Shown here piece by piece: positions 46,316 to 57,756 of a stretch of DNA of 64,000 nucleotides (position 1 is the stretch's first letter; each line of letters begins with the position of its first letter). A program made the translations under genes and the position numbers. The notes below the pieces were generated by a model. That model was not told the origin of the DNA and searched no databases. It saw only the letters and a list, made by a program, of their open reading frames with translations. Source of the stretch: Aureimonas sp. AU4 (GTDB lineage Bacteria > Pseudomonadota > Alphaproteobacteria > Rhizobiales > Rhizobiaceae); the NCBI RefSeq assembly GCF_001463765.1, contig NZ_BBWK01000006.1:1-64000 (forward strand), in the 5' to 3' direction.

Positions 46316-47638
46316 TCAGCCCCCGTCGCGCAGCCGCACGAAGTAGTCGTCGTGTCCGATCTGCCCCCCCTTGAAGGCGATCTCAAGCCCGTCGAAGCCC
46401 GGCGCGTCGCTGTGGGCGCGGCAGACCGGCGAGCCCGGCGTGTCGGGAAGCGGCAGGCGAGGGGTCAGCGCCCAGACGCCGAGTTCGCGGAGCGCGTGGC
46501 TGGACGTGTCGCCTCCCGCCACCACCGCCCGCTCGAGCCCGGCCTCGCGCACGAGCCGCGCCTGAAGACGACCGAGACCCCGGCCGATCGCATGGCGCGC
46601 CTCCGGTCCGCCGAGCTCGGTGCCGATGTCGTCGCCCGGCCCCATCGCGGTATGGACCACGACGCTGCGGCCCGACCCGAGTAACCGCAGCGCGTCCGAG
46701 GCGACGCGTTCCACCGCCGCCCCGTCGCCGCCGGCCAGCGCGCGCGGGTCGAGCGCGATCGCTGCAAAACCCTCAGCTTCGGCATGGCGGATCTGGCGCT
46801 CGGTGGTCGGCGAACAGCTGCCGGAGACGACCGCGATGCGCTCGCGCGGCGCCAGCGGCTCGAAGCGGGGCGCGCCCGCGATCGTGCCGTCCCTCGCCCA
46901 ATCGGCGGCCAGCGCGTATTCGACGCCCGACGAGCCGACCACGAAGCGCGAGCCGAGACGGCCCAGGCGCCGCAGCAGCCGTCCGGCCTCGGCTTGCGTG
47001 GCGCCGTCGAGGACGTCGATCAGGACCGCGCCCGGCTTCCCCGTCAACGCCGCGTCGACGGCGGCCTCGCCAGCACCCGAGAGGAGCGGGGGCGCGTCCA
47101 CCAGCGCGACGGCAAGCTCGGTCTGCGCCGCGAGGTGCCGGCGCAGGTCGGCCTCGCGCATCGGCGTGACGGGGTGACGGCTCATCACGGGATGCCGGTC
47201 GATGCGGTAGACCTCGCCCCGGAAGGCGGCATGCAGCTCGCCGAAGGCGGTGTAGCGCCTCAGCTGCGGCGCCCCCACCACGATCGGCACCGGCGCGTCG
47301 GCAAAGACCGCGCGCCCGAGTTCCAGCGCCCGGCCGATGCTGCCGACGGTGGGCGAGGAATCGAAGGTCGAGCAGACCTTGTAGTGCGCGATCTCGGCGC
47401 CCTGCGCCGCCATCCAGCGGAAGACGGGCGGGAGGTTCGCGTCCATCCAGTCCGGCGTCTCGCTGCGGCTGGTGCCCGCGATGCCGACCGCCCGCAGCCC
47501 CGCGAAGCGCGCGAGGCGCTCCGGCGTCGGCACGTCGAGGAAGAGCGCGGTCTCGACGCCGCGCAGCGCCAGCGCCTCCATGACGTCGGTGGAGCCCGTC
47601 AGGTCGTCGCCGTAGAAGGTGAGGAGAAGGGGGCTCAT
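46316..47638 (-). CDS. oiaK: DUF1537 four-carbon acid sugar kinase, likely 3-oxo-isoapionate kinase
   Basis: The 440-residue kinase has the DUF1537 N-terminal signature (LTFYGDDLTGSTDVMEALA, Asp11/Asp12) and C-terminal nucleotide-binding part (VVSGSCSPTTERQIRHA, VVAGGDTSSHALRELGV, FKGGQIGHDDYF). Family members phosphorylate sugar acids such as threonate, erythronate and 3-oxo-isoapionate. Its ATG overlaps the stop of the RuBisCO-like gene (ATGA), a pairing known from D-apiose pathways in which OiaK makes 3-oxo-isoapionate 4-phosphate for that protein. The substrate is inferred from this context. Confidence 0.85.
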   Translation of the reverse strand: MSPLLLTFYGDDLTGSTDVMEALALRGVETALFLDVPTPERLARFAGLRAVGIAGTSRSETPDWMDANLPPVFRWMAAQGAEIAHYKVCSTFDSSPTVGSIGRALELGRAVFADAPVPIVVGAPQLRRYTAFGELHAAFRGEVYRIDRHPVMSRHPVTPMREADLRRHLAAQTELAVALVDAPPLLSGAGEAAVDAALTGKPGAVLIDVLDGATQAEAGRLLRRLGRLGSRFVVGSSGVEYALAADWARDGTIAGAPRFEPLAPRERIAVVSGSCSPTTERQIRHAEAEGFAAIALDPRALAGGDGAAVERVASDALRLLGSGRSVVVHTAMGPGDDIGTELGGPEARHAIGRGLGRLQARLVREAGLERAVVAGGDTSSHALRELGVWALTPRLPLPDTPGSPVCRAHSDAPGFDGLEIAFKGGQIGHDDYFVRLRDGG

Positions 47639-48915
47639 GCGCCGTCTCCCGAGCCGAAGGCCCGGATCGAGGCGGCAAGTTCGGGATGGGTCCGGGCGTG
47701 ATGCTGGAGGGGCACGCCCGCGACCGCGGCCTCCCAGGCGTCGCGCACGGCGCGCACGCCGGCGGCCGGGCCCATCGGGTGGCCGACGACCCCGCCGCCG
47801 CACAGGTACAGGAGATCCGCGGTCCGCACCGCCTCGAACGTGGCCGGCGCCTGCCCGCCCCATTGGCCCGAGCATACGACAGGCAACGGCCGGTCCGCAG
47901 GCGAGAAGAGCGGCTTGTCGAGGGCCCGAAAGGAGCGCACGAACGAGGCGTCCGGCTCCCAGTACTTCGCGCCGATGCCGTTGATCTGGAACTGGTCGAC
48001 GCCGAGCAGGCGCCAGAAGGTCTCGTAGACCGAAAAGTCGAGCCCGAGCGAGGGGTGGCGGGTGAGGATGTCCCAGCCGTTGCGATGGGCGTGGAGCGCG
48101 AGGCTCGAGCGCTTCCTGAGGAAGCTCATGGCGCCCATGCCGACGGAGTTGATGTTGACCACGGCGGCGTTGCCGCCGGCCGCCGCGACCAGATCGTGGT
48201 TGCGCATCATCTCGTCGGGATCCGTGGCCGAGATTCCGAAGGCGATCATGACCTTCTTGCCGGTTCGCTGCTCGTGGTCGAGAACGACGGGCATGACGGC
48301 CCGGACCCGCTCGGCGAGCGGCGAGTAGGCCGGGCTCATCAGCTTCTCGTCGTCCTTGATGAAGTCGACGCCCGCCTCGGCGAGCTCGCGCGTCATGGCC
48401 GCGCTCTCCTCCGGGCGCAGGCCCAGCGCGGGCTTCACGATCGTGCCGATCATCGGACGGCCTTCCACGCCCATCAGGCGCTTCGAGCCCTCGATGCCGA
48501 ACTGCGGGCCGGGCCAGGCCTTGGCGAAGGCCGGCGGGAGTTGCAAGTCCGTGACGCGGATGCCGCTGAAGCCCTTGATCGACCAGACGCCGCCGATCGC
48601 GATCGTCATCAGGGCCGCGAGGTCCGTGCCGACCGCCTCCAGCGGGAAGGCGATGTCGGCCTCGCCGCGATTGAAGCTTGGGGCCTGCGCCAGATCTTCG
48701 TGCGAGCGCCCGAACGCCGGCTCGTCCACGGGTTCCAAGCTGCGGACGGCGACGACGCGAGCGGCGACGCGCGCCTTCAGCTCCGGCGTCTCACCGGGCA
48801 GGGCCGTGAAGGTGCCGGTGGACTGGTCGCTCGCGATCTTGGCGGCCAGCTTCTCGACGCTGCCCGGCGTCTCGATCCGGTAGGTCAGGACGATCTCGTC
48901 ACTTGCGCCCGTCAT
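47635..48915 (-). CDS. oiaX: RuBisCO-like protein, likely 3-oxo-isoapionate-4-phosphate transcarboxylase/hydrolase
   Basis: The 426-residue protein has the form-IV RuBisCO fold. Lys161 (GTIVKPALGL) matches catalytic Lys175. The carbamylation/metal motif FIKDDE (Lys187, Asp189, Glu190) is intact, and the phosphate-binding CGGGVVGHPMG is present. Loop 6 differs (GIGAKYWE), and RuBisCO Lys177 is Ala163, so it is not a CO2-fixing enzyme. In apiose pathways such proteins split 3-oxo-isoapionate 4-phosphate either to 3-phosphoglycerate and glycolate (OiaX) or by decarboxylation (XrlA). No tetrulose-phosphate isomerase gene is nearby, which favours OiaX. ATG at 48915 has GAGGGA 5 bp upstream. Confidence 0.8.
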   Translation of the reverse strand: MTGASDEIVLTYRIETPGSVEKLAAKIASDQSTGTFTALPGETPELKARVAARVVAVRSLEPVDEPAFGRSHEDLAQAPSFNRGEADIAFPLEAVGTDLAALMTIAIGGVWSIKGFSGIRVTDLQLPPAFAKAWPGPQFGIEGSKRLMGVEGRPMIGTIVKPALGLRPEESAAMTRELAEAGVDFIKDDEKLMSPAYSPLAERVRAVMPVVLDHEQRTGKKVMIAFGISATDPDEMMRNHDLVAAAGGNAAVVNINSVGMGAMSFLRKRSSLALHAHRNGWDILTRHPSLGLDFSVYETFWRLLGVDQFQINGIGAKYWEPDASFVRSFRALDKPLFSPADRPLPVVCSGQWGGQAPATFEAVRTADLLYLCGGGVVGHPMGPAAGVRAVRDAWEAAVAGVPLQHHARTHPELAASIRAFGSGDGA

Positions 48916-48955
48916 GGCGTCCCTCATCTTTCCCAGCGCAGGACAGGCCATAAGC

Positions 48956-56750: not shown

Positions 56751-56826
56751 GGCGGGACTCGGGCGGGGAAGGCGAAAGGGACGGGGCGGCCCGGGCCGGG
56801 CGCGCCCCGCGCGGCGACTGTCGCCG

Positions 56827-57756
56827 TCAGTCCTTGAGCGCGAAGGTCTCGAGCTTGGCCGCGTTGTCGGCGTTGATGAGGATGCAGTCCATGAGCTGCT
56901 TCTCCTCGGCGCCGGTCTTGCCGGTCGCGAGGTACTGCTTGGCCTGCTCCACCGCGAGCTGGGCCTGCCGGTAGGCCGGCTGGAGCACGGTCGCCTTGAT
57001 GCCGCCGGCCTTGATCGAGTCGCGCACGTCGTTGGAGCCGTCGAAGCCCACCACGATCACGTCCTTGCGGCCGGCCGCCTCCAGCGCCGCCCAGGCGCCC
57101 ATGGCCATCGTGTCGTTGCCCGAGATGACGCCCTTGATCTCGGGGTTGGCCTGCAGGATCGTCTGCATCTTCTCGAAGGCTTCGGTCTGGCTCCAGTTGG
57201 CGGACTGCTGGGCCACCATCTTCATCTCGGGATACTCGCCGATCACGTCGTGGTAGCCGCCCGAGCGGATGCCCGCGTTCGTGTCCGCCTCGCGGCCGAG
57301 AAGCTCGGCGAAGGGGCCGGCCTCGCCCATGAGCTTCACGAACTCCTCGGCGCCGAGCTGGGCGCCCTGGTAGTTGTTGGAGACGATCTGCGAGACGGCG
57401 ACGCCGCTCTCGTTGATCTCGCGGTCGATCAGGAAGGAGGGGATGCCCGCGTCCTTGGCCTTCTGCACCGCCGCCGTGGTGGCCGCCGCGCCCGCGTTGT
57501 CGAGGATGATGGCCTTCGCGCCGCGTGCGATCGCGGTGTCGAAGAGCTGGTTCTGCTTGTTGGCGTCGTCGTCGTGGACCAGCACGAGCGGCTCGAAGCC
57601 GAGCTCCTTGGCCTTGGCCGCAGCGCCTTCCGCCTCCGCTTTGAAGAAGGGGTTGTCGTGGCTGGGCGTGATGATGGCGATGAGGTCGGCGGCCGAGGCC
57701 GGCACGGACGACAGAACCGCGACGGACACCGCCGCGAGCAAGAGCTTCCTGAGCAT
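56827..57756 (-). CDS. Periplasmic sugar-binding protein, likely for D-apiose
   Basis: The 309-residue protein has a Sec signal peptide ([22 protein letters not shown]) and the ribose-binding-protein fold: [86 protein letters not shown]. It is the first gene of the operon, 109 bp downstream of the second GntR operator candidate. The apiose ligand is inferred from the catabolic genes in the same operon. The ATG at 57756 starts the signal peptide; GGGAGGATTG precedes it. Confidence 0.88.

Follow-up and report, generated by a model that had tools for sequence, protein, structure and literature searches.

The window analysed here comprises bases 1-64000 of one contig (C6) of an Aureimonas genome of 4.49 Mb, and our interest in it centres on a gene cluster at 46316-57756 that encodes a RuBisCO-like protein (RLP) together with a putative set of enzymes for the catabolism of D-apiose. 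A sequence-only reading of the window had described this cluster, and every gene named there was found in place with an intact frame and tight packing. That reading had the cluster ending in the RLP gene. The last gene is the kinase gene, and the cluster also holds a DUF2291 gene that had been omitted. Transcription on the minus strand runs in the order substrate-binding protein (SBP), DUF2291, ATPase, permease, apnO, apsD, apnL, oiaX and oiaK, with a plus-strand gntR placed between apnL and oiaX (Table 1). The ATG at 49004 was chosen by us as the gntR start because a palindrome sits upstream of it.

Table 1. Genes and predicted regulatory sites of the putative D-apiose locus (window coordinates; identities are to the Rhizobium etli p42f counterparts)
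Feature	Position	Strand	Evidence
OiaK-like kinase, DUF1537-type (SBD_N + NBD_C)	46316-47638	-	Best model NF042436 (OiaK), 458 bits, cut-off 700
OiaX-family RLP, predicted 3-oxo-isoapionate-4-phosphate decarboxylase	47635-48915	-	NF042437, 764.4 bits, cut-off 700
Predicted GntR operator TGGTATCGTCATCATACCA	48956-48974		Between oiaX and gntR; TGGTAT-N7-ATACCA
GntR/FCD (NanR-type) regulator, divergent from oiaX	49004-49717	+	NF003011, 325 bits, cut-off 260 (longer frame 48914-49717)
ApnL, predicted D-apionate lactonase	49705-51594	-	NF049900, 831 bits, cut-off 750
ApsD-like putative D-apiose dehydrogenase (Gfo/Idh/MocA)	51601-52629	-	Top PDB match 5uhw
ApnO-like putative oxidoisomerase, 6-phosphogluconate dehydrogenase type, PGDH_C domain	52641-53468	-	PF16896, 254 bits; 80% identity
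Sugar ABC transporter permease	53501-54568	-	PF02653; 71% identity
Sugar ABC transporter ATPase	54565-56112	-	Family models; 61% identity
DUF2291 periplasmic lipoprotein	56109-56717	-	PF10054, 186 bits for frame 56109-56750
Ribose-type periplasmic SBP, probable apiose SBP	56827-57756	-	80.6% identity
Possible second operator half-site TGGTATGATGA	57865-57875	+	Upstream of SBP gene; 11-mer identical to one read on the first site's minus strand

To compare the cluster with those of relatives, loci were retrieved by a search with no query but the RLP, and the best 80 of 426 were kept, nine of them shorter than 20 kb. At score thresholds set by ourselves, homologues of the GntR regulator were present in 78 of these loci, of the kinase in 77, of ApsD in 71, of ApnL in 67 and of ApnO in 65. 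Recurrence on this scale indicates that the arrangement of the cluster is not a product of chance.

The assignment of the Aureimonas locus to D-apiose catabolism is well supported by sequence comparison. ApnL (831 bits) and OiaX (764 bits) both score beyond the NCBIfam equivalog cut-offs of models that are named for the apionate pathway. The SBP encoded on R. etli plasmid p42f contains the chain of PDB entries 5ibq and 4ry0 exactly, except for two leading residues. We take 5ibq to have been solved with D-apiose, the names and titles of the entries saying ribose-type. The ApsD-like protein shares 63% identity with the Agrobacterium radiobacter oxidoreductase 5uhw, with a template-modelling (TM) score of 0.97 for the predicted model, and the ApsD-like and ApnO-like proteins, both adjoining the other cluster genes, are 64% and 80% identical to their R. 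etli p42f counterparts. Family models, PDB matches and likeness to R. etli uphold the sequence-only proposal of a D-apiose locus with ApsD-, ApnL-, ApnO- and OiaK-like proteins, an RLP, a ribose-type transporter and a GntR regulator. On the strength of the substrate alone, an association with plants is plausible. A literature search returned no paper combining Aureimonas and apiose.

The chemistry of the RLP decides which branch of apiose catabolism is to be expected. The review PMC6302742 reports that two RLPs, one from A. radiobacter K84 and one from Xanthobacter autotrophicus, act on the same substrate by decarboxylation and transcarboxylation/hydrolysis. We read this pairing as 'respectively', which would make the K84 protein the decarboxylase and the Xanthobacter protein the transcarboxylase/hydrolase. 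The NCBIfam name for OiaX is likewise that of a decarboxylase. The OiaX model (NF042437) was searched in 397 genomes of the order, as was the isomerase class treated below, and kinship among these genomes means that the counts are not independent draws. OiaX scores were two-peaked: 26 genomes gave 757.8-791 bits, the next match gave 487.7, and the window RLP belongs with the upper peak (upper group). Its identity is 71% to the OiaX of two R. rhizogenes strains and 43-49% to the lower-group RLPs of 13 loci, and its nearest named relative is that of Aureimonas jatrophae (94%). In the RLP tree the two groups split with 100/100 support and the window protein falls in the OiaX clade, in a reconstruction where, by the program's own warning, two long lower-group branches leave some joins unsure.

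Alignment of 107 OiaX rows (103 distinct sequences) with 17 lower-group rows, the latter representing 15 different genes (L108 and L165 are the same, as are L109 and L166), identified 13 columns separating the groups at 98% or more. RuBisCO positions E60, N123 and H327 carry D, G and Q in 107/107 OiaX rows and E, N and H in 17/17 lower-group rows. The chance of finding three or more separating columns among 18 listed active-site positions is about 0.014. Over these 18 positions the window RLP shows the changes E60D, W66F, N123G, K177A, H327Q and G381Q, with the RuBisCO letters at E60, W66 and G381 being those we presume, and it keeps K175, K201, D203, E204, H294, R295 and K334. Serine at S379 was tried as a further clade difference and rejected, as it proved on closer reading to be kept. 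By its altered active-site residues, the window RLP falls outside RuBisCO forms I-III. The three clade-specific positions are all listed as RuBisCO active-site residues in PMC5786004, and loss of E60, N123 and H327 would, we infer, remove the carboxylation chemistry. The window RLP is a member of the OiaX decarboxylase family and most likely removes CO2. The sequence-only reading had favoured the transcarboxylase/hydrolase route because isomerases are absent from the cluster. With an RLP that passes the OiaX decarboxylase model, joins the OiaX clade and lacks the residues of the other clade, we reverse that choice with good confidence.

The lower-group RLPs, with model matches of 363-488 bits, keep E60, N123 and H327. 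Their 13 loci were fetched from 44 genomes with such an RLP, ten of them chosen for a nearby ApnL homologue, and contained homologues of ApnL in 10, of ApnO in 11 and of OiaK in 12. In two of these loci (L157 and L159) the permease is 82-83%, the ATPase 77-78% and the dehydrogenase 59% identical to those of the apiose type. The lower group holds better candidates for XrlA than the window RLP does, in a comparison that included no named XrlA sequence. Among the plasmid records listed (25 of 366), none carried the name XrlA, and the lower-group proteins had generic RuBisCO names. The title of one entry in the reference list of PMC10176493 reports an RLP oxygenase of D-hamamelose, and the lower clade could be either XrlA-like or a hamamelose oxygenase of this kind.

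A decarboxylase route calls for isomerases acting on an erythrulose phosphate. The sequence-only statement that tetrulose-phosphate isomerases are absent is true of the window cluster, where no isomerase gene was found; for the genome it fails, as other contigs carry candidates for both. The genome encodes two triose-phosphate isomerases (TIMs) and one RpiB-type protein. The RpiB-type protein, on contig C70, scores 263 bits against the model for the D-erythrulose-4-phosphate isomerase DerI (curated cut-off 240). The second TIM, on contig C27, is 57% identical to the TIM of the R. etli oiaX operon, as compared with 39% for the other TIM. NCBIfam names the C27 protein as triose-phosphate isomerase only, and its 57% identity makes it a candidate LerI/EryH-like L-erythrulose-phosphate isomerase. 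In both R. etli and R. esperanzae, a TIM gene and an RpiB/DerI gene lie between oiaK and apnO. The loci of these two species also carry dhaK and dhaL after apnL (L169:2569-4239 and L168:24038-25248).

Results from the wider comparisons elaborated on this linkage. Isomerase homologues were present in 21 of the 80 OiaX loci (both in 16, one in 5); the 13 lower-group loci had none. At a DerI-class threshold of 219 bits or more, set at a gap in the scores, such a gene was found in 25 of the 26 OiaX genomes and in 34 of the 371 others, including none of the 41 among those others that have a lower-group RLP only. At the curated cut-off the counts were 23/26 and 16/371. Of 21 Aureimonas genomes searched, the same 18 had an OiaX scoring over its cut-off together with the second TIM (at least 53% identity) and DerI (at least 66%). 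In the other three, no TIM exceeded 39% and no RpiB-type match went beyond 32%.

The surroundings of the two isomerase genes suggest a further role. On C70 (L123:1-10450) the DerI gene stands with a DeoR-type gene, an eryC-like gene (cut), eryB, eryA, an eryD-like gene and a DUF2291/ABC transporter set. This stretch is probably an erythritol locus, the ery names being given by family and gene order, and as a set the genes are similar to the loci described in PMC3599248. NCBIfam for its part reports a glycerol-3-phosphate dehydrogenase among these genes, with the FGGY kinase and the sugar-type regulator both under their cut-offs. The second TIM gene on C27 adjoins an fba gene. It is plausible that the C27 and C70 isomerases are shared, as they probably are, with erythritol catabolism.

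The palindrome between oiaX and gntR is likely to be the GntR operator. Its perfect form, TGGTATN7ATACCA, occurs only at 48956-48974 in the whole genome. With at most one mismatch, 49 of the 80 loci have it in the 350 bases preceding the OiaX match, against a background of 8 occurrences at other places in 1.57 Mb and of 0.05% in shuffled stretches. Copies with one or two mismatches elsewhere in the genome were rejected as operators, since 14 were counted per strand at up to two mismatches and a reversed-pattern control gave 19. The 11-mer of the half-site upstream of the SBP gene has only two copies in the window at up to one mismatch. The half-site and the oiaX palindrome would fit control of the two transcription units by a single regulator. 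A sigma-70 promoter scan found 0 promoters.

The predicted pathway can be set out as follows, its steps before OiaX being reportedly those of Carter et al. in 2018. The ribose-type ABC transporter would import D-apiose, which ApsD would convert to apionolactone and ApnL further to D-apionate. ApnO may then form 3-oxo-isoapionate, to be phosphorylated by OiaK and decarboxylated by OiaX to L-erythrulose phosphate. The second TIM (C27) and DerI/EryI (C70) would carry this product to D-erythrose 4-phosphate, which would enter the pentose phosphate pathway, and TGGTAT-N7-ATACCA is probably the site at which the divergent GntR protein acts. A broader idea is that Aureimonas has an apiose pathway without isomerases of its own, wired to those for erythritol so that the two diets are interdependent, and that, within the apiose RLPs, the change from RuBisCO-like carboxylation chemistry to plain decarboxylation is signalled by the absence of E60, N123 and H327. 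We regard this combined proposal as somewhat doubtful, though far from improbable.

Taken as a whole, the window very likely carries a regulon for D-apiose catabolism that follows the OiaX (decarboxylase) route, with unlinked isomerases. A number of observations weigh against this conclusion, some on their own and some by favouring another explanation. The labels ApsD and ApnO come from identity to R. etli and PDB proteins, with no NCBIfam model over its cut-off, and the kinase falls well under the OiaK cut-off, OiaK still being its best model. A low OiaK score as the mark of a different kinase was considered and rejected, because the R. etli kinase has a comparable score (473 bits). The cut-off of NF042436 shuts out both kinases, and the annotation of the R. 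etli protein goes no further than four-carbon acid sugar kinase. One genome (G247) has OiaX and no close DerI (145 bits), and in 23 of the 80 OiaX loci no copy of the palindrome turned up even with two mismatches allowed.

The remaining points bear on the alternatives. The C27 and C70 isomerases might serve erythritol only, with the OiaX product leaving by another unlinked route such as a phosphatase or an aldolase. The C70 isomerase gene does adjoin probable eryB, eryA, eryD and transporter genes, and neither isomerase gene has the palindrome (none within two mismatches in 8 stretches near isomerases). An EryA-like kinase (70% or more) is moreover present in 17 of the 18 Aureimonas genomes with OiaX and in 0 of the 3 without it; it tracks OiaX, so the genus pattern alone cannot tell which pathway keeps the isomerases. 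We nonetheless consider this explanation unlikely, given that other Rhizobiales have homologues of both enzymes within the oiaX operon itself, placed between oiaK and apnO, and that one draft genome (G407), the only one to separate the two pathways, keeps OiaX, the second TIM and DerI with no EryA. It is more unlikely still that the window RLP is an XrlA-type transcarboxylase/hydrolase converting 3-oxo-isoapionate 4-phosphate to 3-phosphoglycerate and glycolate, a route in which isomerases are unneeded. This would agree with the lack of isomerase genes in the window cluster and nearby in all 15 Aurantimonadaceae loci tallied (0/15). Glycolate oxidase homologues are present on contig C17 (best 524 bits, cut-off 568), so a want of downstream genes does not count against the route, and glycolate oxidase was set aside as a discriminator that is not useful. 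The OiaX equivalog match and clade, the changes E60D, N123G and H327Q and the existence of isomerases in the genome all oppose the XrlA-type route, as do the other-clade RLPs of L157 and L159, which with their apiose-type transporter and dehydrogenase genes are the better XrlA candidates.

Branched-sugar pathways share enzyme families, and the locus might accordingly be meant for a different branched sugar, such as D-hamamelose, or for a different sugar acid, with apiose a side substrate. The hamamelose oxygenase known from the title mentioned above lends this some colour. Such a reading is highly improbable in view of the SBP, 81% identical to the structurally solved R. etli protein, the gene set held in common with the R. 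etli locus and the scores beyond the cut-offs of the apionate-pathway models for ApnL and OiaX; OiaX, moreover, lacks active-site residues which one would expect in an oxygenase.

A second sugar block occupies window positions 39338-46067, with an AraC regulator, an XylF-like SBP, a single-domain ATPase, a permease, a short-chain dehydrogenase (SDR) and an FGGY pentulose kinase (TIGR01315, 645 bits, cut-off 409). It is probably a polyol or pentulose catabolic operon. The AraC-XylF-XylG-XylH part (41818-46067) was considered as part of the apiose system and rejected, since it joins the locus in only 1 of the 80 relatives, A. jatrophae.

Reading the locus as an OiaX-type system corrects the predicted end products of apiose for a genus in which 18 of the 21 genomes searched have OiaX: the expected end product becomes D-erythrose 4-phosphate, reached via an erythrulose phosphate. 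It also serves as a caution that a pathway branch read from genes absent in one cluster can mislead. The residue signature and the operator are offered as directly testable.

Judged by its gene set, the locus is of a kind already known, that of R. etli p42f in a partly rearranged form. The locus of R. etli CFN 42 (NC_007766, 30568-45159) has every gene of the window cluster, at identities from 45% (DUF2291) to 81% (SBP). The two share the SBP-DUF2291-ATPase-permease, apsD-apnL and oiaX-oiaK orders and a NanR-type gntR divergent from oiaX. In R. etli, TIM and RpiB/DerI genes stand between oiaK and apnO, apnO itself precedes the SBP gene, and dhaKL come after apnL. The window cluster has apnO flanked by the permease gene and apsD, and gntR by apnL and oiaX, and the isomerase genes of its genome are on other contigs. 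The K84 OiaX carries the same NCBIfam equivalog name as the window RLP, the 71% identity given above referring to two other R. rhizogenes strains and not to K84. With the XrlA-type RLP of X. autotrophicus the window protein has the RuBisCO superfamily in common; if the second clade is XrlA-like, the distance would be that of 43-49% identity and of differences at E60, N123 and H327. The isomerases of the window genome look like those of the erythritol eryR-tpiB-rpiB module, described for Rhizobiales loci in PMC3599248, but are split over two contigs, and in genomes G398 and G402 the two isomerase genes adjoin a DeoR-type gene and fba.

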